Positions 8,257-36,385 of a DNA stretch of 64,000 bases are shown one piece after another (within the stretch, counting starts at the first letter, position 1; each line of letters starts with the position of its first letter). The stretch is from Xanthocytophaga flava. GTDB lineage: Bacteria; Bacteroidota; Bacteroidia; Cytophagales; 172606-1. The stretch spans positions 62,001 through 126,000 of the forward strand of contig JASJOS010000021.1 in the NCBI GenBank assembly GCA_030068525.1, read 5' to 3'. Position numbers and translations under genes: made by a program. The notes beneath the pieces were generated by a model. It made no database searches. It was not told the DNA's origin and saw nothing but the letters and a program-made list of their open reading frames with translations.

Positions 8257-8454
8257 ATGAGCTTTTTCAAAAGATTTTTTATGGAGTCTAAACGAAAGGT
8301 AATGCTCCTGGATGTAGAAGAAGATATTGAACAACTAAGTGGGAATCAAATGGACGCTATTCTGGGAGGTAAGCCCATATTTACGCAAACCCATCCTTTC
8401 CAGGTGGAAGATGAAAAAGATAGAAGTGAAAGTATACAGGATACACAAAAGTAA
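8257..8454 (+). CDS. GG-leader-like small peptide, cysteine-free
   Basis: 65 residues. An amphipathic Phe/Lys start (MSFFKRFF), an acidic stretch, and LSGNQMDAILGG, which is the double-glycine ending typical of leaders cut by C39 peptidase domains. The putative core after GG (KPIFTQTHPFQ then an acidic tail) has no Cys, so it cannot form lanthionines. It is the first gene of the cluster and precedes the outer-membrane receptor. It shares design, not sequence, with the peptides at 23673 and 23907. It may be an unmodified bacteriocin or signal, a radical SAM substrate, or not a precursor at all. Confidence 0.6.
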   Translation: MSFFKRFFMESKRKVMLLDVEEDIEQLSGNQMDAILGGKPIFTQTHPFQVEDEKDRSESIQDTQK

Positions 8455-8460
8455 AAGTAC

Positions 8461-8570
8461 CCCGGATTGTAAGCAGTCGTTACTGTATGCCCCTTATCGG
8501 GTGAATTGACGAAAGTCAACCAGAAGGTGACCCGTAATGATATACCTCAACGCAGGGTCATTATAATTTA
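8461..8570 (+). ncRNA. candidate structured leader RNA with alternative helices
   Basis: Between the small peptide gene and the receptor gene. CGGGT (8498-8502) can pair with ACCCG (8530-8534) around a 5-bp hairpin TTGAC-GAAA-GTCAA (8506-8519) with a GNRA tetraloop. Alternatively TGACCC (8528-8533) pairs with GGGTCA (8555-8560), and CCC (8491-8493) with GGG (8499-8501). These helices exclude each other, as in a switch. No known riboswitch class was recognised. Inference from pairing only. Confidence 0.35.
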
Positions 8571-8617
8571 TGGATATCCATTGCATTTTAGGGTATAACT
8601 ACTAACCATTTTATTTT

Positions 8618-11140
8618 ATGAAGACAATTTATTCTTTCCGGCTTCTATGGTGGTTTGTGCATTTTTTCATAGGAGGGATATCTGCTCAGATACTTTTTAT
8701 CCCTGCCGGAAAGGCACAAACCCTTCCATTCGAGAGCTTATCCGCCTCTACATCCCCCATTTCTTCCAGTGTGCGATTGCATGGGGTAGTCAAAGAACAA
8801 GCTTCGAATGCGTCTGTTCCTTTTGCTACTGTTGCGCTCCGACAGGGAAGTGCAACGATCCCTGTCAAAGGAACCATTACAGATACGGCAGGCAGATTTG
8901 TATTGGAAAACATAAGACCAGGTAGCTATATTCTGGAAATAAGTTATCTCGGATATCGTAAGTTTGTCATGGATCCATTAACAATTGAATCAGGGAACCC
9001 AGAGGCCAATATTGGTCAGATTCAGTTACAATCCGAAGTTAATCAACTTAAAGAGATCAAAATTGTAGGGAATAAACCTTTTATTGAACGGGTAGAGAAT
9101 AAGTTCATTCTCAATGTTGCCAATAGCGTAGTTGGTTCAGGTGCCAGTGCTATTGAAGTGCTTGAAAGAGCACCTGGTGTGTTTATCGGTGGAGGTAATG
9201 TGTCTGTGCAAGGCAAACCCGCTCTGATACTGCTGGATGGAAAGGCAATTCAACTTTCGGGAGAAAGTCTGGCTGATTTTTTAAAAGGTTTCTCCTCTGA
9301 TAATATTCTAACAATAGAAATTATTACTGAGCCTTCTGCCAAATATGATGCATCTGCTGGTGCTGTCATTAACATTCGTACTAAAAAAGGGCTTTCCGAA
9401 GGCTTAAACGGTACTGCTAATTTTTCTCTGGGTAGTAGCATCTATCCCAAATATACTGCCGGAACTAGTTTTAATTATCGTAAAAATGCTGTAAATGTAT
9501 TTGGAAGTTATAACTATGGTAACAACATTTCAATGCGCCGGCGTCGGGAAAATAGTCTCTTCTCATCAGAACAATCGTCTGGTCCATTACAGGCATTGGA
9601 AACCAATGGTGAAGATAAAACCAGTGGACAAACCCATACCACACGTTTGGGAATAGATTATCAACTTACCAGGAAACATGTATTTGGACTCACGGCTGAT
9701 GCCAACTTTTATAAACAGAATATAAATGGAAGTTCCACTACTGGTTTCATTACACCACCTCTAACAACAGACTCTATTCTGCAAACCAGTAGCCAACGTC
9801 AAACAGATCACTCTCTTTTCATTGTGAATCTGAACTATAAAGGATCCTTTGGAAAATCTGGTAATACTCTTGAGGCCAATATTGATTATGGAAGAGATTC
9901 TTATCAAAGTACTAGTGAGTTCAGAGGTAATATAACGATTCCTGAATCAGCTTCTACTCATTTTTCGCAAGGTTTGCAGAATTTGCCCAACTATTCAATT
10001 TGGTTTACTACCTACAAGCTGGATTACGAACAATCCCTGCCTGGTAAAATTACGCTGGAAGCAGGTGTCAAGACTACTTTTGCCAAAACAGACAATCGCT
10101 TGCAAATTAATACGCGAGACAGTGAGCAAACCAATTGGAAGCCAGACCCACGAAGTAATATCTTTCTCTATGAAGAAAACATCAATGCCATTTATCTGAA
10201 TCTAAAAAAAGAGATACATAAATGGAATATAAATGTGGGTGCACGGGTGGAACAAACACGGGCAAAAATCCATTCGGTTACCAGTAACCAACTGATTAAT
10301 CGTAACTATGCCAATTTATTCCCAAATATATCCCTTTGGAAAGATGTAAGTAAGAAACACCGAACATCTTTCTCTTTTACGGGAGGTTTGCGGCGACCCA
10401 GTTACAATAATCTGAATCCATTCTTACTGTATACAAATCAATATATTTATTATCAGGGCAATCCCTATCTCAATCCGGAAATAAACTATCGGTTCTCGAT
10501 TTCACACACCTACAATAAAAAGATTACTACTACACTAAATTATTTTATCTCCCGTAATCTGTTTTATGAAACATTAGAACAAGAGCCTAACAGTCGGGTG
10601 ACACGCTATTTTTATGATAATCTGGCTCAGGGACACACATATGGTATCAACATAAATTTTCCAATTCAATTTACAGACTGGTGGGAATCAAGTAATAACA
10701 TATTTGCCAGTTATGGAAAAACGCGTGACAATAATTTCCTGGGTATCCCGCTCGATGAGGCATCCTATGGTATGTATATAAATACATCGCATCAGTTTAG
10801 TCTTCCTCATGGTTTTAAACTGGATCTGACAGCTACTTATTTGAGTACCTATCGTTTTGCAACTAATATTCAATTACCCAACCTGTATGCAAATGCGGGT
10901 TTCCAGAAAGAAGTATTGAAACAGACTGCTACAATACGAGTTGTTTTTAATGACATTTTCTGGTCAAGACTTTATCGTTACCAAACCCATTCCGCAGTTC
11001 AAAATCAGGAAGGAAGAAATTATACGGATTCAAGAATGATTCGGGCTGCTTTTACGTATCGGTTTGGAAATAAAAACGTCCTGAGCCGTAAAAGAAGCAA
11101 AGGCAGTGAGGAAGAAAAGAGTCGTGCACTAAATGAATAG
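8618..11140 (+). CDS. TonB-dependent-type outer-membrane receptor with carboxypeptidase-like domain
   Basis: 840 residues. N-terminal signal peptide ending near residue 34 (PAGKAQ), a carboxypeptidase-regulatory-like beta domain (about 52-135: GVVKEQASNASVPFATVAL, then GSYILEISYLGYRKF), a plug-like part (about 150-255: VLERAPGVFIGGGNVSVQG, KYDASAGAVINIRTKKG) and a long beta barrel to the C terminus (OMP_b-brl_3 type). Such proteins import or bind ligands at the outer membrane, though this subclass often lacks a clear TonB box. As the first large gene of the cluster it may give self-uptake, sensing or immunity to the peptide product. Its end overlaps the annotated start of the first LanC. Confidence 0.85.
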   Translation: MKTIYSFRLLWWFVHFFIGGISAQILFIPAGKAQTLPFESLSASTSPISSSVRLHGVVKEQASNASVPFATVALRQGSATIPVKGTITDTAGRFVLENIRPGSYILEISYLGYRKFVMDPLTIESGNPEANIGQIQLQSEVNQLKEIKIVGNKPFIERVENKFILNVANSVVGSGASAIEVLERAPGVFIGGGNVSVQGKPALILLDGKAIQLSGESLADFLKGFSSDNILTIEIITEPSAKYDASAGAVINIRTKKGLSEGLNGTANFSLGSSIYPKYTAGTSFNYRKNAVNVFGSYNYGNNISMRRRRENSLFSSEQSSGPLQALETNGEDKTSGQTHTTRLGIDYQLTRKHVFGLTADANFYKQNINGSSTTGFITPPLTTDSILQTSSQRQTDHSLFIVNLNYKGSFGKSGNTLEANIDYGRDSYQSTSEFRGNITIPESASTHFSQGLQNLPNYSIWFTTYKLDYEQSLPGKITLEAGVKTTFAKTDNRLQINTRDSEQTNWKPDPRSNIFLYEENINAIYLNLKKEIHKWNINVGARVEQTRAKIHSVTSNQLINRNYANLFPNISLWKDVSKKHRTSFSFTGGLRRPSYNNLNPFLLYTNQYIYYQGNPYLNPEINYRFSISHTYNKKITTTLNYFISRNLFYETLEQEPNSRVTRYFYDNLAQGHTYGININFPIQFTDWWESSNNIFASYGKTRDNNFLGIPLDEASYGMYINTSHQFSLPHGFKLDLTATYLSTYRFATNIQLPNLYANAGFQKEVLKQTATIRVVFNDIFWSRLYRYQTHSAVQNQEGRNYTDSRMIRAAFTYRFGNKNVLSRKRSKGSEEEKSRALNE

Positions 11141-12548
11141 TATAGTATATATCACAAATAGTATATATCACAAATGGGGTTTTAGAACGCCATCTATAGT
11201 ATCTGATGTAGTGTTAAACAGAAAATATTCCTGCCCAATGCCGAAGGCATGTGCTGAAAGTACTCAACATTCTTATATCTTAAACTCTACCAGTATGCAT
11301 CAAAGTATTCATTCCTCCTCTGCTGTGAGTACAAATAAGTGTAAAGACATCTATGAGACCAAAGATACGAAAGGGCATCGTGCAGAAGTTGGTGAAAGTA
11401 TTGATGCCATTGCTGATGCCCTACAGCTTGGACAAAATCAATTGCAGGGGTTTGGATATAGTTCTGGCCTGTTAGGTAAAGTATTGTTTTTTTACTACTA
11501 CAGTGAATATACCGCAAACTCCAACTATGCACAGTGGGCCGAGAATCTTCTTACTAAAGCAATCGGGAAGGTAAGCAAACCGTATCAGGGACGGAATTAT
11601 TATAAGGAAGTTTCTGAACTAGGAATCTTTATCGAATATATGAGTGCAAATAATTTGCTTCAGACGGATACTGACAAACTGCTTACCCCACTTGATCTTG
11701 TTCAAATAGTAGGTATGGAGACTGCTTTAAAACAGAACAACTTTGATCCAGGCAATGGCGCACTGGCTGCAGGATTATATTTTCTTGCCAGAAGCCAGAG
11801 TTCCAGCCAGGTACATGCTTACTTGTACCAGCTTACAGAAGCCTTGCTTGCCATGGCACATACAAATGAAAAGGGACATTTATTCTGGAAGTCACAACTG
11901 TTCAGTTCTGAAAATATCTATTTAGGAATCTCTCATGGACTTGCATTGATTATTCTTTTTCTATGCAGAATGTATAAGCTTTCCATACTTCCAGACAAAT
12001 GTAAACACGCTATTCATCATACGGCAATGTATATCCTCTCTCATCAGAAAGATTACCGGAACGAAGGTTATTTCTTTCCCAATATTGTAGGAGAAGCTGC
12101 CAAAACAACTCGTCTGGGACTTTGCTATGGCGATATGGGAGTAGGATATAGCCTCTATCAGGCTTCTGTTATTCTACAGGATGATTCCTTACAGACAAAA
12201 GCAATCGAAATCTTTGACTTTTCTGCAGAAAGAATCAATCCGGAACAAAATCTTGTTTGCGACGCAGGTATTCTGTATGGTGCATCTGGAGTGGCCCTTC
12301 TATTTGATCGAATGTTTGATCTTACTCAACGTTCCTTATATAAACAAGCTGCCAGCTATTGGTATGAGAGTATTCCATCGTATAGTGTTACTACGAATGC
12401 AACAGCTGGTTATCAGGGCGTTTTCAATCAGGCTTTTGACCATACCAATATTGCATTTATGGAAGGAATCGCAGGCATTGGCTGTACACTAATTAAGTAT
12501 ACCGATCGGGATAATTATTGTTTTGACGATTTAATCTGGCTGATATGA
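11133..12548 (+). CDS. LanC-like protein lacking the zinc Cys-His pair
   Basis: 471 residues from ATG 11133, but the first about 54 residues overlap the receptor end and a 16-bp duplication; ATG 11295 gives 417 residues, closer to the family length. The LanC alpha-toroid glycine pattern is present. Of the catalytic set, His268 (GISHG) and Cys331 (LCYGD) are kept, but the second zinc site, normally a CHG triplet, reads ILYGASG at 380-386, so both Cys and His are missing. It probably cannot hold zinc and may serve as a scaffold or substrate binder for the neighbouring intact LanC, whose start overlaps its stop by four bases (translational coupling). Confidence 0.85.
   Translation: MNSIVYITNSIYHKWGFRTPSIVSDVVLNRKYSCPMPKACAESTQHSYILNSTSMHQSIHSSSAVSTNKCKDIYETKDTKGHRAEVGESIDAIADALQLGQNQLQGFGYSSGLLGKVLFFYYYSEYTANSNYAQWAENLLTKAIGKVSKPYQGRNYYKEVSELGIFIEYMSANNLLQTDTDKLLTPLDLVQIVGMETALKQNNFDPGNGALAAGLYFLARSQSSSQVHAYLYQLTEALLAMAHTNEKGHLFWKSQLFSSENIYLGISHGLALIILFLCRMYKLSILPDKCKHAIHHTAMYILSHQKDYRNEGYFFPNIVGEAAKTTRLGLCYGDMGVGYSLYQASVILQDDSLQTKAIEIFDFSAERINPEQNLVCDAGILYGASGVALLFDRMFDLTQRSLYKQAASYWYESIPSYSVTTNATAGYQGVFNQAFDHTNIAFMEGIAGIGCTLIKYTDRDNYCFDDLIWLI
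11144..11175. repeat. 16-bp duplication just after the receptor stop
   Basis: AGTATATATCACAAAT twice (11144-11159, 11160-11175), four bases after the receptor stop. It encodes a repeat in the N-terminal extension of the first LanC if the earliest start is used. Confidence 0.9.
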
Positions 12549-13780
12549 CTATGAAACTAACCGAATCCCTTATGATTGAGCTTCCTCAACTGGAGACAGA
12601 GCAGATACTCAAACAGATCAATCAAATCATTACCAAAACATCTGCCAGGAATAGTGGCCTTTTTTCGGGATCTATTGGGCGAATCGTATATTATTTCTAT
12701 CTGGCTAATTTTTATAGGGATGAATCCATTGCTGATCGTGGAGTGAGTTTGCTCGAAGAGGTATTATCTCAAATACAGACCGGAACGTATGCTTACCCCA
12801 AGACATACTCTCTCTCAGGAGGTCTGGCAGGTTTGGGAATGGCGCTGACTATTCTCAAAGAAGAAGATATTCTCGAGATAGACTTTGAAGATAATCTACG
12901 CTTCTTTGATCAGCAAATTTCACCACAGGCATTGGAAGAATTACATGCAGGAAATACAGATTATCTGCATGGCGCAATCGGCTCATTACATTATCTGACT
13001 ATGCGTCATCCTTATCATTCTGAACTGGCACAAGTTATCACCGCTATGATTGATGTATTGCATACGCTGGCAGTAAAAAAGGGGGAAGGGATATGTTTTC
13101 CTAACAGATTTATTGAGCAAAACAACAATACTTTAAATACCAATCTGGGTATGGCTCATGGGCAGTGTGGGATCATTATGACCTTACTAAAAGTATACCA
13201 GAGGGGAATTGCTCAATCTGTTATCAGGAGTATTGTGACTCAGACTATACAATATATGTTAGATCTGCAGATTCAACCAGACATTGAAAGTGGAAGGGTT
13301 TCTCATTTTCCTCTAACCTTTGATACTACACAAGCAGCATCTTTTCAAACCAAGGAATACAGTTCCCGACTGGGATGGTGTTATGGAGATTTAAATCAAT
13401 GCCTGACATTATATCATGCTGGTAGTATTTTAAACAGGCCTGACTGGATTGAGATCGCAGATCGGGTTGGCTTTTCAACAGTTGCCCGACGTAACCGATT
13501 GCATACGCTTATTACAGATGCGAATTTTTGCCATGGAGCAATTGGTGTGGCCCAGACGTATCGGCGATTATTTGAAATGACCCAACAGGATCTGTATCTG
13601 GAAGCCTATCAGTACTGGATAGATCAGACTCTTTTGTTTACCCGTACGGTAGTAGATGAATCTGATTACCTTCCCTATGCTGGTGAGTTTCTGGGTGGAG
13701 GCATTGGTGTATCATTGGGACTCATGTCTGCTTTGGGGAGAGATGAGCTGAATTGGGATCGAATCTTTCTGCTTTGTTAA
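12545..13780 (+). CDS. lanC: lanthionine synthetase C (cyclase)
   Basis: 411 residues, the size of stand-alone LanC cyclases. All expected active-site residues can be seen: His205 in GMAHG, zinc ligands Cys279 in WCYGD and Cys329-His330 in FCHGAIG. LanC activates Cys thiols by zinc and adds them to dehydroalanine or dehydrobutyrine made by LanB, closing lanthionine rings. Acts in the cytoplasm on the precursors at 18547-19419. The ATGA overlap with the preceding degenerate LanC suggests both are made together in equal amount. The second half contains the GFLGGGIG glycine-rich end typical of the toroid. Confidence 0.92.
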   Translation: MTMKLTESLMIELPQLETEQILKQINQIITKTSARNSGLFSGSIGRIVYYFYLANFYRDESIADRGVSLLEEVLSQIQTGTYAYPKTYSLSGGLAGLGMALTILKEEDILEIDFEDNLRFFDQQISPQALEELHAGNTDYLHGAIGSLHYLTMRHPYHSELAQVITAMIDVLHTLAVKKGEGICFPNRFIEQNNNTLNTNLGMAHGQCGIIMTLLKVYQRGIAQSVIRSIVTQTIQYMLDLQIQPDIESGRVSHFPLTFDTTQAASFQTKEYSSRLGWCYGDLNQCLTLYHAGSILNRPDWIEIADRVGFSTVARRNRLHTLITDANFCHGAIGVAQTYRRLFEMTQQDLYLEAYQYWIDQTLLFTRTVVDESDYLPYAGEFLGGGIGVSLGLMSALGRDELNWDRIFLLC

Positions 13781-13807: not shown

Positions 13808-13885
13808 CTATGCTGGATGACTATGCTGGATGACTATGCTGGATGACTATGCTGGATGACTATGCTGGATGATTATGCTGGATGA
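13808..13885. repeat. 13-bp tandem repeat, six copies
   Basis: CTATGCTGGATGA is repeated six times; the last copy has a C-to-T change. It lies between the cyclase and the flavin oxidoreductase gene. An open frame can be started inside the last copy (ATG 13882), which makes that upstream start unlikely for the next gene. Confidence 0.93.
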
Positions 13886-13989
13886 GGAAAGAAACAGTGC
13901 CTGACGTCTCTGATAGCGTAGTCTGGAAGGTTTCTCCAAACCCAACGCAAAATATATGTATACTATCTGTACTCCTATTCTCTATCTAT

Positions 13990-14919
13990 ATGGCAAAAAT
14001 CAATTTAGGATTACTTGACTTTGGCTTACGTGACGAACGGATGAACAGCATGCGTATTGTAGAAGATTTGGTAGAATATGCCCGCCACGCTGACCAACTT
14101 GGATTTAGCAGATTCTGGATTGCTGAGCATCATTCTACAGGAAGAAGAATGGCATGGTCAAATCCTCAACCACTTGTTCCCATTCTGGCAGGAATGACAG
14201 ACCGGATTCGGATAGGAGTAGCAGGGGTATTATTGGGTATTCATAATACGTATCATGTTGCCTCTCATTTTAAGTTACTCGCAAATCTTTTCCCCAAACG
14301 TATTGATCTGGGATTAGCCAATGGTGTAGTCAGCGAAAAAGTGGCTCAGATGGCTGTTCAACGTAGCAATAAGGAGTCTCGTGCTCTTTTTGAACAAAAT
14401 AGCCGTCAGCTGGTACATATATTACGTAATGAAGAAGAATTGTACGAGAATGGAAAGGGAATTGTGATTCCTCCTTATAAAGGAGAGATACCGGAAATAT
14501 GGTCTTTAGGTGTATCGTATGATAGCCTCAACCGGGCGTTGGAATTAGAATCTAACTTTGCACGTTCGATCTTTCACCATGGCTCAGATAACTCTTACGA
14601 ACAAGAACGTTTGGCTCGGTTTAAAGAAGAATTTTATGCCATCCATAAAAGAAAGCCCCGTATTACATTAGCTCTGGCAGGATGTTGCCACTCAAGTAAT
14701 CTCAAAGCCAAACGTATTCTTATGTCCTTAAATCAGGATACGCAAGTTGCCAAAGGAGAGGTTTTTGGCACTCCAGACAAGTTTTATGATCAGATCATGG
14801 AGGTAACTGAAAAGTATGGAATTGATGAAGTGATTTTCATGAGTGCTGCACTTAACGTTAAAGATCGAATGCTTGGGATTGAACTCATAAGTGATGTATT
14901 CAGACTGAATAGCAATTAA
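13990..14919 (+). CDS. luciferase-like (LLM class) flavin-dependent oxidoreductase
   Basis: Start ATG 13990 is chosen because the family begins MAKINLGLLDFG; an in-frame ATG at 13882 lies in a repeat array. 309 residues, one TIM-barrel-like domain with the usual blocks DLVEYARHADQLGFSRFWIAEHH, RIRIGVAGVLLGIHN and KRIDLGLANG. These enzymes use reduced FMN or F420 to oxidise or reduce small molecules. In lanthipeptide clusters such flavin enzymes can tailor the peptide; here the reaction is not known. Same strand and within the cluster, so a tailoring role is a fair inference. Related subfamilies occur in non-peptide clusters too. Confidence 0.82.
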   Translation: MAKINLGLLDFGLRDERMNSMRIVEDLVEYARHADQLGFSRFWIAEHHSTGRRMAWSNPQPLVPILAGMTDRIRIGVAGVLLGIHNTYHVASHFKLLANLFPKRIDLGLANGVVSEKVAQMAVQRSNKESRALFEQNSRQLVHILRNEEELYENGKGIVIPPYKGEIPEIWSLGVSYDSLNRALELESNFARSIFHHGSDNSYEQERLARFKEEFYAIHKRKPRITLALAGCCHSSNLKAKRILMSLNQDTQVAKGEVFGTPDKFYDQIMEVTEKYGIDEVIFMSAALNVKDRMLGIELISDVFRLNSN

Positions 14920-15075
14920 GGCACATCTGAAACGATTAGCTATCCGAAACGATTAGTTAAATGAGTATGCCCACGGGTTTTCTTCAGGCTTTTATGCTGA
15001 AGATGCCTAAAGTTGCCTGTACAAACAGAGAAACCATGTAAAAACTACTATCCACTTATAGCTAAAATCATACTC

Positions 15076-17268
15076 ATGTCTTCCTTTCCTTTCTACCGAC
15101 AACTTGATGCGATGGACTGCGGACCCACTTGTTTGCGTATGATTTCAAAGTATTATGGGAAAACATACAGCCTTGACACATTACGGAATGCAACCAGATA
15201 CAGTCGTGAAGGCGTTTCTATGTTAGGTATAAGCAAAGCGGCTGAGACAATAGGCTTTCGAACCTTGGGAGCTATTATTACAATTGATAAACTAATCAGT
15301 GATGAAACTCTCTTACCCTGTATTGCACATTGGGATCAGAATCATTTTGTCGTTATCCATAAAATAAGCAAAAACAAAGTATATGTTGCCGATCCGGGAA
15401 AAGAGAAGATTGCCTATCGGCGAGAGGAATTTCTTGAACATTGGGCTAATATACAGAAAGGAGAGTCGAAGGGAGCAGTTATGTTACTTGAACCAACGAT
15501 TAACTTTTATCAACAGGAAGAAGAAGAACACTATCCTTCTATAGATCTTTTTAAACTTTATCGGTATGCCTTAACTTACAAAGCGCTGATCTTTCAACTT
15601 GTTCTGGGATTGCTGCTGGGTAGTCTGCTGCAGCTAATTTTTCCTTTTCTAACGAAAGCTATAGTAGACATTGGAATCAATCATCGCAATATTGACTTTA
15701 TTTATCTGGTACTTGCCGGACAACTTATGCTCACTCTGGGACAAACGTCTCTGGATTTGATTAGGGGATGGATCTTTCTCCATGTAGGAACTAAAATTAA
15801 GTTGTCTATCCTGTCAGAGTTTCTGGCAAAACTGCTAAAGCTTCCGTTGTCTTTTTTTGACACCCGGATGGCAGGCGATATTATTCAGCGGATTAGTGAC
15901 CATCATAGAATAGAAGCCTTTCTGACCAACAACACCCTGAGCACCCTATTCTCGATTGTAAATATGATTGTCTTTGGTATTGTTTTATGTGTATACAATA
16001 CCTCCATCTTTGTTGTCTTCCTTATGGGGAGCGCCATCTATATTCTTTGGGCAATTATGTTTTTACGCTTTCGCAAAAAACTGGATTACCAACGTTTTCA
16101 GGTCGCCTCACGTAACCAAAGCCAGCTTATAGAATTTATTAGCGGAATACATGAAATAAAGCTCAATGATTGTGGTGTTCAAAAACTATGGGAGTGGGAG
16201 AGAATACAGGCTAAGTTTTTCAGATTGAGTTCACGAAGCCTGGCACTGAGTCAAAACCAGCAACTGGGAGGCTTTTTTATCAATCAGGGGAAAAATATTG
16301 TATCTATCTTTCTGGCAGCCAGAGCTGTTATGTATGGCGAATTAAGCCTCGGTGAGATGTTAGCTATCCAGTACATTATTGGCCAGCTAAACAGTCCGGT
16401 AGAGCAGCTACTTCAGTTTATGCAAACAACCCAGGATGCAAAACTGAGTCTTGAAAGGATGAACGATATTTATGTAATGCCTAATGAAGAACCTGCTGAA
16501 CGGGCTTTTTTGACCTATCTGCCTTCCAATAAATCAATAACACTGCAGAATCTTTCTTTTACCTATCCGGGAACAGGCAATAAACCCATCCTTAAAAATG
16601 TCAACATCCACATCCCGGAAGGCAAGATTACGGCTATTGTTGGAGCGAGTGGAAGTGGCAAGACAACCCTTCTGAAGCTCCTTTTGAAAATGTATGAAAC
16701 ACAAACCGGGGAGGTTAGGGTAGGGGATCTGCGACTGGATGCCCTCAGCCACCAGTTCTGGCGCAAACAATGTGGTACAGTGATGCAGGATGGCTACATT
16801 TTCTCAGATACAATTGCCCGAAATATTGCGGTTGGAGATGAACAGATTGATACTATTCGCTTGGAACATGCTGTTCGTGTAGCCAACATTTATTCTTTCA
16901 TTGAAGATGCTCCATTAGGGTACAATACGAAAGTAGGGTCTCTTGGAAACGGAATTAGTCAGGGACAAAAACAGCGTTTGCTCATTGCACGGGCAGTGTA
17001 TAAGAATCCGGAGTATATCTTTTTTGATGAAGCTACCAGTGCCCTGGACGCTTCGAATGAACGGGTAATCATGGAAAATTTAAATTATTTTTTTAAGGGT
17101 CGTACGGTTGTTGTAGTGGCCCATCGTCTCAGTACTGTCCGGAATGCAGACCAGATCATTGTCCTCAATCATGGAGAGGTTGTGGAAGAAGGAACACATG
17201 ACACACTGGTTGGAGGAAAAGGGATGTATTACCAGTTGGTAAAAAATCAGCTTGAATTGGGAAACTGA
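15076..17268 (+). CDS. lanT: C39 peptidase-containing ABC exporter 1
   Basis: 730 residues from ATG 15076 (an upstream start at 15013 adds residues unlike the family). Residues 1-130 are a C39 peptidase: Cys15 (MDCGPTCL), His90 (WDQNHFVV) and Asp106 (VADPG). It cuts leaders after Gly-Gly. A six-helix transmembrane domain follows (about 160-450), then the ATPase with Walker A GASGSGKTT, signature SQGQKQR (Gly of LSGGQ changed to Gln) and Walker B IFFDEATSALD. It is expected to process and export the precursor peptides across the inner membrane. No fusion protein adjoins it directly; two short ones lie after LanB1 and after exporter 2. Confidence 0.93.
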   Translation: MSSFPFYRQLDAMDCGPTCLRMISKYYGKTYSLDTLRNATRYSREGVSMLGISKAAETIGFRTLGAIITIDKLISDETLLPCIAHWDQNHFVVIHKISKNKVYVADPGKEKIAYRREEFLEHWANIQKGESKGAVMLLEPTINFYQQEEEEHYPSIDLFKLYRYALTYKALIFQLVLGLLLGSLLQLIFPFLTKAIVDIGINHRNIDFIYLVLAGQLMLTLGQTSLDLIRGWIFLHVGTKIKLSILSEFLAKLLKLPLSFFDTRMAGDIIQRISDHHRIEAFLTNNTLSTLFSIVNMIVFGIVLCVYNTSIFVVFLMGSAIYILWAIMFLRFRKKLDYQRFQVASRNQSQLIEFISGIHEIKLNDCGVQKLWEWERIQAKFFRLSSRSLALSQNQQLGGFFINQGKNIVSIFLAARAVMYGELSLGEMLAIQYIIGQLNSPVEQLLQFMQTTQDAKLSLERMNDIYVMPNEEPAERAFLTYLPSNKSITLQNLSFTYPGTGNKPILKNVNIHIPEGKITAIVGASGSGKTTLLKLLLKMYETQTGEVRVGDLRLDALSHQFWRKQCGTVMQDGYIFSDTIARNIAVGDEQIDTIRLEHAVRVANIYSFIEDAPLGYNTKVGSLGNGISQGQKQRLLIARAVYKNPEYIFFDEATSALDASNERVIMENLNYFFKGRTVVVVAHRLSTVRNADQIIVLNHGEVVEEGTHDTLVGGKGMYYQLVKNQLELGN

Positions 17269-18506: not shown

Positions 18507-18546
18507 CTGAGTTGATATATTTTTTTACCCTAAAAATTCCAAAACC

Positions 18547-19474: not shown

Positions 19475-19593
19475 TGGAACAATCCAGTATTACTCTCCAC
19501 CAGGTTCTTTTTGCTTTACTTTTCACTTTGTAGGATAAAGGTAACCATTTTTCAGTATGGTAGGCATTTTTTTCTGCAGAATTGACAATTTTT

Positions 19594-23506: not shown

Positions 23507-23672
23507 CTATTTCCTGGTTATAAAAACAACGAATTGGTCTATATACCTTTATAGTTGGTCGAAAAAACTTTTTCCAGCCATAGTCAGAATCTACCTTAGT
23601 TTTCACTAGCTATGAAGTATAACGGGTAAAGCTTATTTAACAAATCCTTTCACTGATAACATTCTTAGACCC

Positions 23673-26667: not shown

Positions 26668-26751
26668 GATAAGACAGCACAAGTGAGCAGAGTTTTCGAA
26701 AAAGCAAATGAGAATAGGATTTTCACTACTCAGACTTTAACTCATATATCT

Positions 26752-27468: not shown

Positions 27469-27674
27469 GTCATCTTACAGAATCCATACATGTAATTATC
27501 TAGGAATATTTTATCGCCTTCTACATGTATCAATCTACATCCCTATAGTTTTCCTCCTTTGTTTTCTTCCTGTCTGCATGATCTGAGTTGTTCATCAATA
27601 TTTTCTTACTTTTGTTTGTCGTGAAAGCTACACCCCAAGATATATACTTTACTTCTGTACTTAATGAAGAAAAT

Positions 27675-28817: not shown

Positions 28818-29217
28818 ATTCGTTATATTTGTTACTATCCGGGAGATATCTACTATTTTGAGTAGCCTGAAAGCTCTATAAAATCAGTCTGAAATGAGCA
28901 AATTCAGCATTAATAGTATAGTATCCAATTGTTTTAACCTTATTGAGCGAATGTAAAAAAGCGACCCCTGCAGATACTAATATCAAGGAAAAGTAACAGT
29001 AGATTTAGTGTGTTTGAAGTACATAGAAGAAGTATATGGAATAAGTAAAGGACTATAGAAAATACATCTTTGAAGACTTGGTTGATTAATTGGTTATGTC
29101 ACAAAACAGACAAGGTGGACAGAGCTCATCTATCAGATACATACACAAAAAAGAGATATACTGCTATCTTGTTTTACCAATACATGCAATCCATTCACTG
29201 TTACCTATCTGTTGCCT

Positions 29218-30015
29218 ATGAAAAAGTCTCTTAGATGCATCATTATAGATGATGAACCATTGGCACAACAACTTCTGGAAAGGTTTATAGAAAGAGTCCC
29301 CTATCTTTCTCTGGTTGGTAAATTTGATAATGCCATCTCTGCCATCAACGAAGTTACTGATCTGCAGGCTGACATTCTTTTTCTGGATATAAATATGCCG
29401 GAAATGTCTGGCCTGGAATTTTTAGATACCTCTGCCGGTAACCGGCCAAATGTTATTCTGACAACAGCCTATCCTCAGTTTGCCCTGCAGGGTTATGATC
29501 ATAATGTTACGGATTATCTGCTAAAACCCTTCTCTTTTGTCCGGTTTATGAAAGGAGTTCAGAAGGTTCTTGACCGAACACCTATTGTCCTGGATAATAC
29601 AGATACCGAGGCAGCAGTTTCTTCTATAGATATAGCTTCTTCTGAAACTGTTAAAAAAGAGGTGATCACTACCTTACCGGATACTTCTCTTACAGAACGC
29701 TTCTTTATGGTTAAAGAAGATAAGAAGCTGATAAAAGTAAACCTTACAGATATTGTTTTTGTAGAAGGTATGAAGGATTATGTAAAGATTCATATGTTTA
29801 ACAAATTTATTGTTACTCATATTACTATGTCCAGAATTTCCGAGTTGTTGCAGAATAGTGCTTTTATTCGGATTAACCGATCTTATATCGTGAAAATTTC
29901 ATTTATTAAACTGGTAGAGGGTAATATGATAGAAATGACCAATGGCAAAAAGCTTCCTATTGGAATTAATTACAGAGATGCTGTTCGTGAAGCTTTACAA
30001 AACTGGATTCTGTAA
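29218..30015 (+). CDS. LytTR response regulator
   Basis: 266 residues from ATG 29218. Receiver domain 1-120 with the acidic pair Asp11-Asp12, phosphoacceptor Asp57 (LFLDINMPEMSG) and KPF at about 106. A variable linker (130-165) leads to a LytTR DNA-binding domain: FFMVKEDKKLIKVNLTDIVFVEGMKDYVKIH and FIRINRSYIV. Binds direct repeats as a dimer. 400 bases separate it from the LytS gene. Expected to regulate the precursor genes or exporters in response to LytS. Confidence 0.92.
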   Translation: MKKSLRCIIIDDEPLAQQLLERFIERVPYLSLVGKFDNAISAINEVTDLQADILFLDINMPEMSGLEFLDTSAGNRPNVILTTAYPQFALQGYDHNVTDYLLKPFSFVRFMKGVQKVLDRTPIVLDNTDTEAAVSSIDIASSETVKKEVITTLPDTSLTERFFMVKEDKKLIKVNLTDIVFVEGMKDYVKIHMFNKFIVTHITMSRISELLQNSAFIRINRSYIVKISFIKLVEGNMIEMTNGKKLPIGINYRDAVREALQNWIL

Positions 30016-30448
30016 AACCTGATAATCCCTTTTATTATCTTCCCCTATTTCTGCCGGATGTCTTGTATCCTACATGCAACACATCTATAACTTCAGACAG
30101 TATATCCTGTTACTTTTCATATCCTGTTACTTTTCCGTAGAGGTGACCTATTGGGAATATAGCATACTCAAACAGCTGTTGCTGACTTAATTTGAGTAAC
30201 AGCTGCTGGAACGAAATAGTCATTTGTTTCATGTATATACATTTGATTTTCAGTGTATTGACTGCATTGCTTTGGAGGTGTGCTTACACATTGGAGCTGT
30301 CTGTTTTCTACGATTTAACTGGTCATAAGATAGTAGCCACTTGGTCGATGTTTTCCTGTAAAAGGTCGAAATAATTTACCCATTGTAATACAGCTGATAT
30401 ATTCAGGTATAATTTCTAAGTTATCTTATAATCCAAACCCATAATTGT
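30016..30448. other. intergenic DNA after the LytTR gene
   Basis: No gene supported. Contains TATCCTGTTACTTTTC twice (about 30103-30136) and, around 30168-30210, the interleaved pairs ACTCAAA/TTTGAGT and CAGCTGTT/AACAGCTG, an arrangement compatible with a pseudoknot. Confidence 0.35.
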
Positions 30449-30613
30449 ATGCAACTCCCTTTCAACCAAGCCAAACTACATCTTCAAAGAGAAGTTGTGG
30501 TAATGATTCATCTAAATACTCCTACTTCAAAACGGACAGGCACTCATAAGGAGACTGTAAGTACATGTTGTGATGGGATGTCGAATATGAGTTCACTCTT
30601 TTTTAGAAACTGA
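30449..30613 (+). CDS. possible small peptide, unsupported by family
   Basis: 54 codons from ATG 30449: basic and hydrophobic first half, then TSKRTGTHKETVSTCC and GMSNMSSLFF. The Thr/Ser-rich stretch with adjacent Cys resembles a lanthipeptide core, but no GG leader end is present and it does not share the precursor leader. May be random. Listed because it lies between the regulators and LanB2 and no other substrate for LanB2 is adjacent. Confidence 0.25.
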   Translation: MQLPFNQAKLHLQREVVVMIHLNTPTSKRTGTHKETVSTCCDGMSNMSSLFFRN

Positions 30614-30926: not shown

Positions 30927-31310
30927 ATGTATACGCCTATGCAAACTTGTGCCATTATTGAAGCAGATCAGGGTAGTGCTGCCATTCTCAGACATTATTT
31001 GTGGCACATAAGTTTTTTGGAGATTTCCTGGTCTGCAAGCTCTATACAACAGGTCATGGATCAGAATAACAGCACTCTTGTAGATCTGCTCTTTGTGAGT
31101 GTGAATGATGAAGATATCCTGCAAACAAATCTGGCAAATCAGCTACTTACATTAGGTAAGCAAATTATAATCATCTTACCTGTTGCTGAAACAGAAATAG
31201 AACAATATCTCAACAAGATGCTTTCACAGACACCTGTGATGGCTTATCTAAAAAAACCATTAACATTTGAAGTCTTTTTGCAGGCAATGGAGTCTTTTGC
31301 CTCTTTCTAG
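30927..31310 (+). CDS. degenerate receiver-domain protein (no phosphoacceptor Asp)
   Basis: 127 residues, a single receiver-like fold with no output domain. It keeps an acidic patch (Glu12, Asp14 in AIIEADQG) and a Lys-Pro near the end (Lys110 in LKKPLT). Where the phosphorylated Asp should be, in VDLLFVSVNDED, there is Ser58. It is built like the LytTR receiver at 29218 and may have come from it. It probably cannot be phosphorylated and could titrate LytS or bind the LytTR protein. Start ATG 30927. Confidence 0.65.
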   Translation: MYTPMQTCAIIEADQGSAAILRHYLWHISFLEISWSASSIQQVMDQNNSTLVDLLFVSVNDEDILQTNLANQLLTLGKQIIIILPVAETEIEQYLNKMLSQTPVMAYLKKPLTFEVFLQAMESFASF

Positions 31311-31549: not shown

Positions 31550-34500
31550 ATGAACCATTTGCAATTAGGCAGTTTTTATCTGCTCAGAAGACCTTTATTA
31601 CCTATTGAGCCATTGATTATGCTTCTGCAGGAAAATGACACTTGTTTGCAGAGAACAAAATTACGACTCATTCTTGCCGAGACCACAATGCAGGAAGCGC
31701 TTTATCTTGCATCGCCTTCACTTTATAAGCAATGTCAGCAATGGCTCGATAACCCAACAGATCCTGATAAGCCAACAGATAAGGATACATCAAAGTTAGT
31801 TCTTGCCTTACTTAAATATGTTATCCGGGCCAGTAGCCGTAGCACCCCATTCGGTATGTTTGCAGGTATTACTTCGCTGGGTAGTTTCGACGACAACAAC
31901 TCTTTTGCTCACAGCTCTGCTTATCAAACCCATTCCTGTTATCAAACCCATTCAAGGCTGGATATGGCATGGATGGAAGAACTGATATACCAAATCAATC
32001 AGCAAACAGACATTCGCAATCTTCTCAGATTTTATCCCAATAGCAGTCTTTATCATTTTGAAAGCAGTTACCGATACACCTATAAAAATCGATCCAGTAA
32101 ACAATTTTCTATTTGTTCAGTAGAGACTTCTGTCTATCTGGAGCAGGTAATGCAATCTGCTCAGTATGGAGCCAGCTTGCTAACCCTTGCCTCATCTCTT
32201 GTTTCAGACCAGATTACTATTGAGGAAGCACATAGCTTTCTTGATCAGTTGGTGGAAGAGCAGATTCTGGTCAGTGAACTCCAACTGAGTGTACATGGCA
32301 CGGAGCCTCTTCAGGTTTTATACCAACAGTTATCCTCTATGCTGCTTTATCCACATCTTACCGACGAAACATATAGATATATACAAACCTGGCAGGTAAG
32401 GGTGAGCAAAATAACACACCTTTTAAATGATAAGCAGACTCAAATTCAGAAAGGTACTCAGATTCAATACCTGTTATCTGATCTTGACAAAACTATGCTG
32501 TCGGAATGTCCTATACAAACAGATATTGTGTTCGCTACTTGTCAGAATACTTTACATACCTCTTTTTCAGAAAAGCTTACTTTTTTACTGAGCAAGCTAA
32601 TATGTATCAATCAGGGAATTTATCTGGCAGATCTGGAGTATTTCAAATCTAAGTTCAAAGAAAGATACCAATCCAGAGAAGTAGAACTTCTCAAAGTTCT
32701 TGACAGCGAGCTAGGAATTGGGTACAGTCGGGTTAATAATTCAGAGAAAGGCTACCTCCCTTTACTGGAATGTTTACATGGTAGTGAGCAGAGCAAAAAA
32801 ACAGCTATAGAATGGAACTTCTGGAAAGAGTTTCTGATGGACAAGTACTCAGATGCTCTTTTGCATGGATCTCTGGAAATAGAACTTACAGAGAGAGACA
32901 TAGCCTATCTGCAGGAAAACACAAATGCCACATCCCAATCGTTACCTACTCATGGTATCGTATTCGGAAACCTTCTTGCCGGGCCGGAAGAATCGTTGGA
33001 TGAAGACAACTTCCTTTTTTGTCTCTCTACCATGTCTGGTCCCTGCCCAGGCAACTTATTTACCCGTTTTTGTCATACTAATCCTGATCTATACGCTCAG
33101 GTTCAGCAAATTATAGAAGCCGAGGAAGCTGCCGATCCAGACGTTATTTATGCGGAAATTGTACATTTGCCTGATCCCAAAGCTGGTAACATTTTGATTC
33201 GTCCAGTCCTTCGTCACTATCAGATTCCCTATTTACATCCGACACATACCTTAAAGACAATAGATCAGAATGCAGTCAGTCAGAATGCAGTCAGTCAGAA
33301 TGCAGCTACTGATCTAGCCAATATTCCATTAAATGATCTGCTAATTTCCATAGGGGAGAACGGCAAAGTAGTACTGCGTTCCCGGACATTGAATAAACAA
33401 GTTATTCCACGTCTGACAAGTGCACATGATTTCAGTGGTGGATTGGAAATCTATCGTTTTCTCTGTGATCTTCAATATGAACATTGTGTGCTTAACGTTG
33501 CCTGGCACTGGAGTATTCTGGAAAAACGAAAATATCTTCCAAGAGTACGTTATCAGAATATTATTGTAAGCCGGGCAATGTGGAATCTTCGTCTGAGGGA
33601 TTATCCCTCTCTAAAACAGAAGAATCCTGATACTTCTGTTTTTTTTCAGTCTATCCGAACGGAACTGCACATACCACGCTATGTATGTGTAACAAAAACA
33701 GATAATGAAATTTTATTGGATCTGGAAAATTGTCTTTGTCAGCAGATTTTCCTGGAAGAAATTATCAAATATGAACAAGTCCAACTCAAAGAATTTCTTC
33801 AACTTCCTGATCAATGCCTGTTGAAAGACCAGAATGGGAAATATACAAATGAAATCATTTTTCCATTTTGCCTTACACCAACGGGTCCCCAACACAGGAA
33901 AGCACCCGTTAACAACAAATCAACTATACATACTCAACAGGCCTCTATCCATTTGCATGCAACTTGCTCTGTTTCAGGCAAGGATGTCTCTTCAGAGACG
34001 GCTGATCTGTTGTATAGAGAACAACTATTGAAAGAAAATGTGTCCTGGACAAGTATGAAAAATACAATCACGCCTTTCATACACCAACGGTGTTTTTCTA
34101 TTGGTAGTGAGTGGTTCTATTTTAAGATATATACAGGTGAAAAAACGGCAGACCAACTTTTAAAAACCTTATGTAAAGACTTGTTTGAACACTGTCTTGA
34201 TTCAGGGCTGATTGACTCATACTTCTTTGTCCGTTATACAGACCCTGAGTTTCACTTACGCATTCGGTTACATTGTCCTCAACCCAAACAATCCTGGCAT
34301 AAACTGATTATTCTGGTACAGGATATTTTTGAGCCTTATCTGCATAAGGAACTAATCCATAAATTACAGATTGACACTTATGAACGTGAAATAGAACGAT
34401 ACGGCTCTGCAACACTTCCTGCCAGTGAAGAATTGTTTTTTCATGACAGTAGGGCTGTTTTGTCATGGCTCCAGACAATCAACAGTGATTATCAGGAGAA

Positions 34501-34996
34501 ATCACGGTGGCTATTTGCCCTGTGTGGTGTCGATTTTCTGCTAACTGACTTTCACTACTCACTGGAAGAAAAGATCACATTGATGAGACAGCTAAGTTCC
34601 TTCTTTGAAACAGAACAGGAGCTAAGCCCCCAACAGCGCAAAGATCTTAACCTGCAGTACAGGGTTCAACTTCACACAATTAATGAAGTAATACATGGAG
34701 ATACTTTACTGAAAGAAGGCAAACAAATACTATGTCAACGTTCGCTAAGCAGCCAGGGAGCCATTACACAAATTATCAATCAGGTGTATCAAAGCCATCC
34801 TGCACCAGATACAGAATGTCAACGCCTGATATCCAGCTATCTGCACATGTTCCTCAATCGATTGTTTATCAGCAATCCAAGGCAACATGAATTAGTAATA
34901 TATTCCTTTCTTTTACGAAATTACCTTTCCCAGGCAGCTCTGTTGAAAAAAAACAAACTCAATGCTACCGAACTCAATCAATCGGTCTCGTCCTGA
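31550..34996 (+). CDS. lanB: LanB dehydratase 2, full length
   Basis: 1148 residues. Clearly related to LanB1 over its length: LGSFYLLRRPLLPIEP, RSTPFGMFAGI, HSRLDMAWM, AGNILIRPVLRHYQIPYL and NKQVIPRLTSAHDF in the glutamylation domain; from about residue 843 the SpaB-C domain with GSEWFYFKIYTG, FVRYTDPEFHLRIRLH and EIERYG. An in-frame 15-bp repeat adds a QNAVS-type insertion near 33266-33305. No precursor lies next to it; its substrate may be the same lanA products or the small ORF at 30449. A radical SAM gene follows. Confidence 0.93.
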   Translation: MNHLQLGSFYLLRRPLLPIEPLIMLLQENDTCLQRTKLRLILAETTMQEALYLASPSLYKQCQQWLDNPTDPDKPTDKDTSKLVLALLKYVIRASSRSTPFGMFAGITSLGSFDDNNSFAHSSAYQTHSCYQTHSRLDMAWMEELIYQINQQTDIRNLLRFYPNSSLYHFESSYRYTYKNRSSKQFSICSVETSVYLEQVMQSAQYGASLLTLASSLVSDQITIEEAHSFLDQLVEEQILVSELQLSVHGTEPLQVLYQQLSSMLLYPHLTDETYRYIQTWQVRVSKITHLLNDKQTQIQKGTQIQYLLSDLDKTMLSECPIQTDIVFATCQNTLHTSFSEKLTFLLSKLICINQGIYLADLEYFKSKFKERYQSREVELLKVLDSELGIGYSRVNNSEKGYLPLLECLHGSEQSKKTAIEWNFWKEFLMDKYSDALLHGSLEIELTERDIAYLQENTNATSQSLPTHGIVFGNLLAGPEESLDEDNFLFCLSTMSGPCPGNLFTRFCHTNPDLYAQVQQIIEAEEAADPDVIYAEIVHLPDPKAGNILIRPVLRHYQIPYLHPTHTLKTIDQNAVSQNAVSQNAATDLANIPLNDLLISIGENGKVVLRSRTLNKQVIPRLTSAHDFSGGLEIYRFLCDLQYEHCVLNVAWHWSILEKRKYLPRVRYQNIIVSRAMWNLRLRDYPSLKQKNPDTSVFFQSIRTELHIPRYVCVTKTDNEILLDLENCLCQQIFLEEIIKYEQVQLKEFLQLPDQCLLKDQNGKYTNEIIFPFCLTPTGPQHRKAPVNNKSTIHTQQASIHLHATCSVSGKDVSSETADLLYREQLLKENVSWTSMKNTITPFIHQRCFSIGSEWFYFKIYTGEKTADQLLKTLCKDLFEHCLDSGLIDSYFFVRYTDPEFHLRIRLHCPQPKQSWHKLIILVQDIFEPYLHKELIHKLQIDTYEREIERYGSATLPASEELFFHDSRAVLSWLQTINSDYQEKSRWLFALCGVDFLLTDFHYSLEEKITLMRQLSSFFETEQELSPQQRKDLNLQYRVQLHTINEVIHGDTLLKEGKQILCQRSLSSQGAITQIINQVYQSHPAPDTECQRLISSYLHMFLNRLFISNPRQHELVIYSFLLRNYLSQAALLKKNKLNATELNQSVSS

Positions 34997-35188
34997 TAAA
35001 TCTTTGTCATCATTACATACTAAATGTCGAGAGAATAATTCAATTGGTCGAAAAAAGTTCTTCTAACGGATAATGATTCGCTTTTTACAAAGATTAATGG
35101 CTTAAAGCATTATTAAACAGATTTTTGGGTGCCATTTTTTTTCCTGGTCCCCAACCCCTCAGCCTACTTTTTCTGATTCCTGACTTAT

Positions 35189-36385
35189 ATGAAAAAACAA
35201 CCCAAGTGCAGATCTCTGATCTTAAAAGTTGCAAGCCGATGTAATCTGAACTGTTCTTATTGTTATATGTACAATGCTGGTGATAGTACCTACCAGTATC
35301 AACCAGCCGCAATGAGCAAGCAGATAGTAGAGGCTGTGCTGATAAAGGTGAAAGCCCATTGTAAAAAACATAAGCTCAAACACTTTGATTTTATCTTTCA
35401 TGGGGGAGAGCCATTATTGCTTCCAAAGCAGTTTTACATTGACTTTGTTGCCAAAGCCGATGAGACATTAAGGCCCGAAATCATTCCTCATTACTCATTG
35501 CAAACGAATGGGACGTTGCTCTCAGTTGAATGGTGTAAATTGCTTGCCAGTTTAAACATTCGTTTGGGTGTAAGTCTGGATGGTACTGCTGAAACCAATG
35601 ATAGAGTTAGAGTGGATCATCGGGGGAAAGGTTCTTATCATAGAATAGTAAAGGGACTGAATACAGCTCTCCAAACTTCCTCCTATGGATTCAGGCCAGG
35701 CCTGCTTTGTGTCATTGACCCAACATCTGATCCAATCGCTACATATAACCAACTGAAGAATTTATCGGATACTATTAGTTTTTTGTTACCGTATGCTACG
35801 TATGAACATCCTCCTAAAGATTTGACAAAATCGGCAACTCCTTATGCAGACTGGTTGATTGCCATTTATGATCAATGGATACAGCAGTCTCACAAGCCAC
35901 AAATTAGAATCTTTCAACAGATTATGGAGCTGATTTTGGGTATTGACAGAGGCTTTGAATACCTGGGTAGTACTAAAAATGAGTTTCTGGTAATTGAAAC
36001 AGATGGCGGCATTGAAGCCGCAGGAGCATTAAAAGTATGTGGAGAGGGATTTACTAAAGCTGGGATGAATATTTTGTCTGATCAGCTTGATGATGCATTA
36101 CAAACAGATTTGATCCAACTATATTATCTGAGCCATCATAGACTTTCCAGGAAATGTCGACTTTGTTCCATAAAAAAAATCTGTGGGGGAGGATATTTGC
36201 CTCACCGGTTCCGCAAAAAAAATGGTTTTGATAATCCTTCTGTATTTTGCCAGGATCTCATGCGATTAATTGCTCATATTCAGAATTCACTCATCTCTAT
36301 GTTATCAGAGGAAATAGTGAAACAATCGGGGTTGATTCCTTTAGACTATTCACTGTTAAAAGCCTATGCAGATCTTGACGTGTAA
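35189..36385 (+). CDS. radical SAM/SPASM peptide maturase, FxsB-like
   Basis: 398 residues. Radical SAM cluster Cys18, Cys22, Cys25 (CNLNCSYCYMYN), then FDFIFHGGEP and SLQTNGT, GVSLDG. The SPASM part has Cys284, Cys323, Cys326, Cys332 and Cys354: CRLC, KICGGGYLPHRF and DNPSVFCQDL. This ending is like FxsB and related enzymes that make C-C or C-X crosslinks on aromatic residues of ribosomal peptides. It is the last gene of the cluster. None of the lanA cores has an aromatic residue, but the cysteine-free GG peptides do. Substrate not proven. Confidence 0.85.
   Translation: MKKQPKCRSLILKVASRCNLNCSYCYMYNAGDSTYQYQPAAMSKQIVEAVLIKVKAHCKKHKLKHFDFIFHGGEPLLLPKQFYIDFVAKADETLRPEIIPHYSLQTNGTLLSVEWCKLLASLNIRLGVSLDGTAETNDRVRVDHRGKGSYHRIVKGLNTALQTSSYGFRPGLLCVIDPTSDPIATYNQLKNLSDTISFLLPYATYEHPPKDLTKSATPYADWLIAIYDQWIQQSHKPQIRIFQQIMELILGIDRGFEYLGSTKNEFLVIETDGGIEAAGALKVCGEGFTKAGMNILSDQLDDALQTDLIQLYYLSHHRLSRKCRLCSIKKICGGGYLPHRFRKKNGFDNPSVFCQDLMRLIAHIQNSLISMLSEEIVKQSGLIPLDYSLLKAYADLDV

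Follow-up and report, generated by a model that had tools for sequence, protein, structure and literature searches.

A recurring Cytophagales locus combining lanthipeptide, radical SAM and LanB-pepX modules with a common type of tandem operator

Introduction

Class I lanthipeptide clusters of the Bacteroidota, including the pinensin family, encode precursors with LxLxKx5L leaders, often with a double-glycine (GG) site and a C39 exporter (PMC7268733). According to its excerpted text, the survey in question covered a seven-gene range around LanC and discarded open reading frames (ORFs) without a core Cys. Pedobacter heparinus carries a two-LanB cluster and Spirosoma linguale has four LanB and five LanC proteins (PMC3091789, excerpted account), and both two-LanB clusters and GG-leader class I lanthipeptides in Bacteroidota are already known. 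Hybrid regions of the Bacteroidales pair radical S-adenosylmethionine (rSAM) enzymes with LanC-like proteins in genomes without LanB, and the excerpted report regards these LanC-like proteins as probably no lanthipeptide enzymes (PMC10352776). As excerpted, PMC11347149 gives LytTR sites as 9-bp direct repeats in pairs, 10–13 bp apart. Here, we describe a cluster of genes for ribosomally synthesised and post-translationally modified peptides (RiPPs) at positions 8257–36385 of a 64,000-nucleotide stretch of Xanthocytophaga flava (contig JASJOS010000021.1, positions 62,001 to 126,000; the whole stretch is hereafter the window), together with its relatives.

A first-pass annotation of this DNA had described doubled lanthipeptide machinery with an additional rSAM maturase, and had stated that class I clusters normally need one set. 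The latter is true generally, although the Pedobacter cluster was reported in 2010. Every gene on its list was found, all on the + strand. This included three lanA, two LanB, two LANC_like, two C39-ABC, an LLM (luciferase-like) flavin oxidoreductase, an rSAM enzyme and a histidine kinase (HK)/LytTR pair, as well as three Cys-free GG peptides starting at 8257, 23673 and 23907. Beyond that list, the cluster contains an OMP_b-brl_3 protein, a 333-aa TPR-like protein, a 127-aa receiver-like protein, a small precursor of a fourth type, pepX, and a set of tandem operators. In our best reading of the sequences, the doubling is better described as three modules with their own precursors each. Module A would comprise the three lanA, LanB1 and two LanCs, the first of them (LanC1) devoid of the zinc Cys/His; module B the GG peptides pep2 and pep3, a cyclophane-type rSAM enzyme and the exporter C39b; and module C a LytS kinase, a LytTR response regulator (RR), pepX, a receiver and LanB2. 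We propose, with a probability of roughly 0.6, that these modules form one LytS/LytTR regulon yielding at least three kinds of modified peptide, namely a set of lanthipeptides, a pepX modified by LanB2 and a pair of cyclophane peptides.

Results

Nearly the whole gene set recurs twice in a genome of the same family (G005), on two contigs and in an order that differs from the window: HK-RR-pepX-receiver-LanB2-pep3-pep2-rSAM-C39-HlyD-receptor-LanC1-LanC2-LLM-TPR-lanA-LanB1. In one copy, the TPR-like protein was assigned from its position and its resemblance to the counterpart in the other. Much of the set is also found in three Dyadobacter genomes (G265, G304, G348; Cytophagales per NCBI), whose 23-kb stretches carry three or four lanA, one LanB, LanC1, LanC2, two LLM enzymes, HK/RR, pepX, pep3, pep2, rSAM, C39, HlyD and the start of a receptor-like gene. 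Because of this recurrence, the gene set goes beyond chance. Besides Dyadobacter, modules A and B occur together in G375, G232, G100, G062, G256 and G138, with LanC2 missing from G232, G100 and G062. We annotated relatives from their similarity to proteins of the window and with small profiles made for this analysis, and absences hold for the fetched stretches only, since these span 18–40 kb.

The modules are separable, in that B can stand without A, and C apart from both, as would be expected if unrelated neighbouring clusters had been joined by transfer and were functionally unlinked. Against this stand the near-full set present twice in G005, the repeated pairing of A with B, and the use of one operator type across modules that is nearly confined to the cluster within the genome (described below), which together make such an origin very improbable. 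Chance neighbourhood of the modules was rejected on the same grounds of joint recurrence and shared operator.

In the window, pep2 (23673..23852, +) is a GG peptide with core GGAVDRPGWIEIPI... and an aromatic-x-x motif, and pep3 (23907..24110, +) a GG peptide with core RGGYKEYTPPLYE...W..P..LL. They are followed by C39b (24235..26637, +), the peptidase-containing ABC exporter of this module, and by short HlyD-like protein b (26683..27468, +; weak match). The FxsB/YhhB-related rSAM enzyme (35189..36385, +) was identified by family matches and its CxxxCxxC motif (CNLNCSYC, residues 18–25). In G005, pep3, pep2, rSAM and C39 are adjacent. A scan of 390 genomes of the order for the rSAM enzyme returned 18 genomes at E <= 1e-40, and annotation of the surroundings identified 17 copies of the module, spread over 15 genomes. 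In the stretches fetched, these copies contained pep3 (17/17), a C39b-type exporter (17/17), pep2 (16/17, not G354), LanB (14/17; absent from G319 twice and from G354, 40 kb) and lanA (12/17). pep3 was found in every one of the 15 genomes whose rSAM relative is close (E <= 5e-92), and additionally in G335. The pep3 profile scan of the 390 genomes gave 16 at E <= 2e-12 and one further weak match (G060, 0.004) that was taken as spurious; the profile was made from its own positives, which makes this a test of specificity and not of independence. The three weakest rSAM genomes of the order (G101, G238, G007) had none of pep2, pep3 and pepX. Beyond the order, 7/395 sampled genomes of the phylum carried rSAM relatives at E <= 1e-70, the window's own apart, and the pep2, pep3 and pepX profiles matched at 0/7 of these loci. 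One locus outside the order (L153, G655) has an FxsB-type rSAM with a small neighbour at 19588-19806 whose GGWTQ and WTKH motifs recall pep2.

The pep2 core has an aromatic residue followed by two further residues in 15/15 aligned rows (W in 14, F in one), and aromatic-x-x is the core motif of cyclophane (triceptide-like) precursors. All 17 pep3 rows share GG and one Pro, and most have RGGDKEYxPxY. This conservation fits a predicted cross-linking of the cyclophane type. Searches of pep2 and pep3 against NCBIfam gave scattered single-member matches to unrelated models, at E 0.07 or worse. The tracking of rSAM by pep3 in all 15 genomes also bears on whether LanB2, LanC1 and rSAM might all act on the three lanA in a single product line, with the Cys-free peptides as accessories. 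The genes do share one strand, and hybrid RiPPs with several modifying enzymes exist as a precedent. However, the rSAM module occurs without lanA in 5/17 copies (fetched stretch) and LanB2-type LanBs are found with pepX and no lanA, and we consider a single line unlikely.

LanB1 (19582..22848, +; alternative in-frame ATG at 19594) and LanB2 (31550..34996, +) are both full-length and carry Lant_dehydr_N and Lant_dehydr_C, as class I LanBs do. Their identity is 35%. In a tree of 39 LanBs, 13/14 lanA-adjacent enzymes, LanB1 among them, fell in one group of 15 (support 88/96) and 13/18 pepX-adjacent enzymes in another group of 15 (support 91/85); these supports are moderate and the labels were assigned by adjacency, that of G049 being positional, as no pepX ORF was found there. 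LanB2 paired with both G005 LanB2s (100/99) outside these two groups, and the second LanBs of G138 and G335 formed long branches. A recent duplication of LanB1/LanB2 is ruled out by the tree and the 35% identity. Across the order, the LanB2 scan returned 79/390 genomes with a LanB at E <= 1e-30, and at least 8 of the 79 had two LanBs within ~20 kb (G000, G005, G062, G138, G335, G151, G355, G382); since at most two candidates were scored per genome, doubled LanBs are undercounted. A third LanB of the X. flava genome (9.49 Mb, 63 contigs) lies on a contig other than that of the cluster. The doubling that was first annotated is thus half right: the two LanBs are real and are no recent copies, only one member of the LanC pair is intact, the other having lost the zinc Cys/His; and neither G005 copy contains a second C39 or a second short HlyD-like protein, each having one of either.

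Module C starts with the LytS-type histidine kinase (27588..28817, +; His_kinase) and the LytTR response regulator (29212..30015, +; Response_reg-LytTR). These precede pepX (30449..30613, +), a 54-aa Ser/Thr-rich precursor with a LanA-like leader box and no GG leader end, and a stand-alone receiver-like protein of 127 aa (30927..31310, +). Members of the pepX family, found in part by pattern and in part by eye, are Ser/Thr-rich ORFs of 39–57 aa with GG-less leaders, located between RR (or HK) and receiver, LanB or pep3. pepX accompanies 16/17 copies of the rSAM module (all but G354) and is also found in ten stand-alone HK/RR-LanB cassettes without a lanA (>25 bits) or LanC match (G215, G283, G150, G212, G295, G369, G235, G229, G226 and, by eye, G076). 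The leaders conform to LxLxKx5L strictly in 11/25 and loosely in 21/25, the cores are Cys-free in 9/25, and NF038153 matched 9/25 at E <= 1 (best 6e-6). Coding constraint was apparent in pepX, pep2 and pep3, as third codon positions varied most in 18/19 pair comparisons (one tie) and dN/dS was 0.01–0.51 in the 11 pairs for which it was computable. Response_reg matched the receiver of G319 at 55 bits and that of G005 weakly (23 bits vs the cut-off of 30); the receivers of G215 and the window went unrecognised. By eye, G319, G232 and G005 retain the phospho-acceptor Asp of this protein, and another residue stands there in the window, G351, G298 and seven listed stand-alone cassettes.

Two further observations were made at LanB loci of relatives. 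A second family of small proteins, with the pattern (D/N)NWx(V/I)SAxD(L/I)F, was seen in six loci at most ~260 bp from LanB; in four of them its gene immediately follows LanB on the same strand. The six are L131 (G215) 15159-15338, L135 (G212) 8242-8451, L137 (G369) 12244-12393, L139 (G229) 8017-8226, L141 (G313) 12586-12774 and L142 (G328) 9307-9480. The pattern does not occur in the window. In L135 (G212), six small GG-type peptides stand in a row at 5851-8091, flanked by a C39-like exporter (308 bits to C39b) on one side and LanB on the other.

The operator consists of the half-site TTGGTCGAAA repeated at a 21-bp period and was first noticed in G005 and the window. The cluster combines what is expected of a LytTR locus, a kinase and LytTR regulator together with direct repeats that are paired at a distance of about two helical turns and precede putative target genes. 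Two sites lie in the divergent region at 7.9–8.0 kb: 7914..7942 (-; exact pattern, 20.2 bits by position weight matrix, PWM), ~130 bp 5' of the DUF5694 gene, and 7988..8016 (+; exact pattern, below the PWM threshold), ~240 bp before the pep1 and receptor/LanC genes. The others are at 23534..23562 (+; exact pattern and PWM), before pep2/pep3/C39b and 109 bp from pep2; at 30341..30371 (+; 18.5 bits), 78 bp before pepX and with an extra weak half-site at 30319; and at 35023..35053 (+; 22 bits), 136 bp before the rSAM gene. The exact pattern TNNGTCKA-N13-TNNGTCKA has four matches in the 9.49 Mb, three of them at the cluster and the fourth 92 bp 5' of a 127-aa ORF, vs 43 for the backwards pattern.

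To count operators in relatives, a matrix was built from 8 sites in the two G005 loci, themselves excluded from the counts, and a same-strand site was sought within 200 bp of each gene start. Sites were found upstream of pepX in 17/26 cases (the position of G076 was wrong and scored as a miss), of pep3/pep2 in 11/16 and of the receptor gene in 6/11. In comparison, enzyme and regulator genes had few or none (rSAM 1/17, LanB 0/35, C39 0/22, HK/RR 0/63). Permuted matrices gave means <=0.05 per class, with a largest single value of 5, and other spacings gave 0 to 2, except 22 bp (5/26 at pepX). The operator also precedes LanC1 in the three Dyadobacter loci. In total, 36 non-training sequence groups contained 71 sites at or above the matrix threshold, 51 of which had a peptide, receptor, LanC1 or rSAM gene <=450 bp behind. 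With rSAM, pep2 and pep3 travelling as a unit, LanB2 placed in a separate group beside its own precursor type and one operator type preceding the peptide genes of several modules, the earlier suggestion that more than one product is made or regulated together holds, and several co-regulated products are well supported.

The 5' part of the cluster begins with pep1 (8257..8454, +), a 65-aa Cys-free GG peptide immediately 5' of the gene for a TonB-dependent receptor-like outer membrane protein (8618..11140, +; CarboxypepD_reg and OMP_b-brl_3, with relatives in other loci). Among 18 other stretches, pep1 had a clear relative only in G375 (26 bits, upstream of a receptor-like gene); G232 and G100 gave weak matches (12 bits), the remainder was noise, and neither G005 copy matched. 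Next come LanC1 (11133..12548, +), LanC2 (12545..13780, +), the LLM flavin oxidoreductase (13882..14919, +; family match) and C39a (15013..17268, +), an ABC exporter with a peptidase domain. The all-helical 333-aa protein (17419..18420, +) has no Pfam or NCBIfam match. Its model (pLDDT 79.7) gave TPR proteins (kinesin light chain, Rap) as top Foldseek matches at E 0.007–0.1, with no listed match at E 0.001 or better, and because these matches are weak we name it TPR-like and no further. lanA1 (18547..18735, +; GG leader, LxLxKx5L), lanA2 (18857..19039, +) and lanA3 (19231..19419, +) each scored 46 bits vs NF038153 (cut-off 22), which places their leaders in class I, and are the only members of this leader family found genome-wide. 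Across 18520-19419, the three leaders are identical, the sequence immediately 5' of the start codons is near-identical and the cores have diverged, so the genes look like recent tandem copies. Short HlyD-like protein a (22935..23483, +; weak match) follows LanB1. Both of the short fusion proteins annotated at first are thus present, but their HlyD likeness is weak (partial NCBIfam matches, none to Pfam HlyD).

LanC2 retains the catalytic His and all three zinc ligands (the C...CH triad), whereas in LanC1 the zinc Cys/His of CHG is replaced (LYG). Across LanC1-type rows the zinc His is gone in 15/15 and the neighbouring Cys in 14/15, with the catalytic His retained in 12/15 and the other zinc Cys in 11/15. 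LanC2 rows from lanA clusters have all sites intact (9/9), and the distant rows G000C63 and G151 have none. A genome-wide search with LanC2 found no zinc-complete LanC in G232, G100 or G062, and for this reason LanC1 may cyclise without full zinc binding, or it may serve as a partner only. The LanKC cyclisation domain has been reported without these zinc residues (PMC7268733, excerpted text). An argument against activity comes from G062, where the only LanC-like protein found is also devoid of the catalytic His and the other Cys.

Outside the cluster, the DUF5694 gene (6872..7780, -) is divergent from it and, having its own tandem operator upstream, is perhaps a regulon member; its protein had no relative in the 18 other stretches scanned. 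Further along, window positions 50530-58413 (-) hold a 2627-aa open frame among large same-strand frames, with a G+C content of ~0.47, above that of the cluster.

Discussion

Our proposal is that the LytTR regulator would bind the tandem repeats before pep1/receptor/LanC, pep2/pep3, pepX and the rSAM gene and turn on three lines together. Regulator binding is predicted from the repeats. In the first line, LanB1 would dehydrate the three GG-leader lanA peptides and LanC2 cyclise them; the zinc-less LanC1 would assist as a partner or act as a second cyclase, and the LLM enzyme is a candidate for redox tailoring. In the second, the FxsB/YhhB-type rSAM would cross-link the pep2 aromatic-x-x motif, and perhaps pep3 tyrosines or Trp, before C39b cleaves pep2 and pep3 at GG and exports the pair. 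In the third, LanB2 would dehydrate pepX, encoded between the regulator and LanB2.

Several observations weigh against this proposal. The chemistry of the products is deduced from sequence. Regarding the operator, only 2/13 loci have a site upstream of the first lanA, the window not among them; 9/26 pepX and 5/16 pep3/pep2 starts are operator-less; and 20/71 sites are followed by none of the expected gene types (peptide, receptor, LanC1, rSAM). Seven of these 20 are reversed and close to the regulator-gene start in stand-alone cassettes, and given that our counts were same-strand, control of the regulator gene itself is possible. The enzyme annotated as FxsB-like does have FxsB as its closest match, at 335 bits, but this is under the curated cut-off of 370, as is the YhhB match (329 vs 445), and in the window its gene is 11 kb from pep2/pep3. 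The pepX rows are weakly alike (mean column identity 28%), and window pepX fits LxLxKx5L loosely and matches no NCBIfam model, NF038153 included. A LanB2-type LanB is absent from 10/17 rSAM-module copies, and pepX persists without one in Dyadobacter, G375, G232, G100 and G256, and with no LanB nearby in G319, meaning that LanB2 is not the only possible pepX enzyme.

GG pheromones and LytTR regulators control bacteriocins in Gram-positive bacteria. By analogy, pepX or a GG peptide (pep2/pep3/pep1) might mainly be a LytS pheromone, with the lanthipeptide as the effector of quorum sensing; this would add to the regulon proposed above and is a tentative option to which we give somewhat less than even odds. 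pepX follows HK/RR, its frequent operator is as expected for an autoinduced signal, and it is kept in all but one rSAM-module copy, even without a LanB2-type LanB. However, pepX is not marked out by operator position, since pep3/pep2 and receptor genes have operators in front as well. Moreover, as pepX is GG-less and a C39-type match >100 bits was found in G212 alone among 11 stand-alone loci (20 kb), its export is unexplained. A bolder, doubtful extension is a self-wired RiPP network, in which LanB-dehydrated pepX would signal to LytS and switch on the lanthipeptide and cyclophane pair through one operator, with the receiver and zinc-less LanC as modulators. In its many Cys-free members, pepX would then be no lanthipeptide, and the receiver appears to lack its phospho-acceptor in some members. 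If pepX were such a signal, the LanC/lanA-free LanB-pepX cassettes would represent a previously unrecognised signalling RiPP system.

The locus bundles several predicted RiPP chemistries, apparently co-regulated, in one recurring Cytophagales arrangement. Three families of small precursors (pep2, pep3, pepX) are defined from it, and no NCBIfam model fits pep2 or pep3 convincingly. With a concrete operator and precursor families, product discovery and induction become directly testable. Two natural tests are also provided: G232, G100 and G062 for cyclisation by a LanC that has lost the zinc Cys/His, and the LanC-free cassettes for what LanB enzymes do without a neighbouring LanC. Our searches of open-access papers found no description of the combined locus, pep2/pep3 or pepX. 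The excerpted survey of PMC7268733 could miss LanC-free cassettes and Cys-free pepX, because it was anchored on LanC and required a core Cys.

Among described systems, the locus resembles Bacteroidota class I clusters, as excerpted, in lanA leader type, GG site, C39, full-length LanB, LanC and several lanA. Unlike them, it also has an rSAM module, a second LanB whose precursor is GG-less, a zinc-less LanC partner and a tandem operator. It shares with P. heparinus and S. linguale more than one LanB in a Bacteroidota lanthipeptide cluster or genome, whereas the excerpted account of those strains (PMC3091789) mentions no rSAM module, pepX or common regulator. As in the Bacteroidales hybrid regions, rSAM stands beside LanC-like proteins without key cyclase residues, but those genomes, in the excerpted report, have no LanB (PMC10352776). 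The likeness to FxsB/YhhB rSAM/SPASM cyclophane maturases lies in the best-matching families, CxxxCxxC, the short peptides beside the enzyme in relatives and the pep2 aromatic-x-x, and the differences in scores below both cut-offs, C39/GG export, LanB neighbours and precursors that match only unrelated NCBIfam models. Finally, Gram-positive LytTR bacteriocin/pheromone loci likewise have a kinase with a LytTR regulator, C39, GG peptides and direct repeats two helical turns apart; this locus differs in its Gram-negative phylum, its extra stand-alone receiver and its peptides, which are predicted to be modified by LanB or rSAM enzymes.

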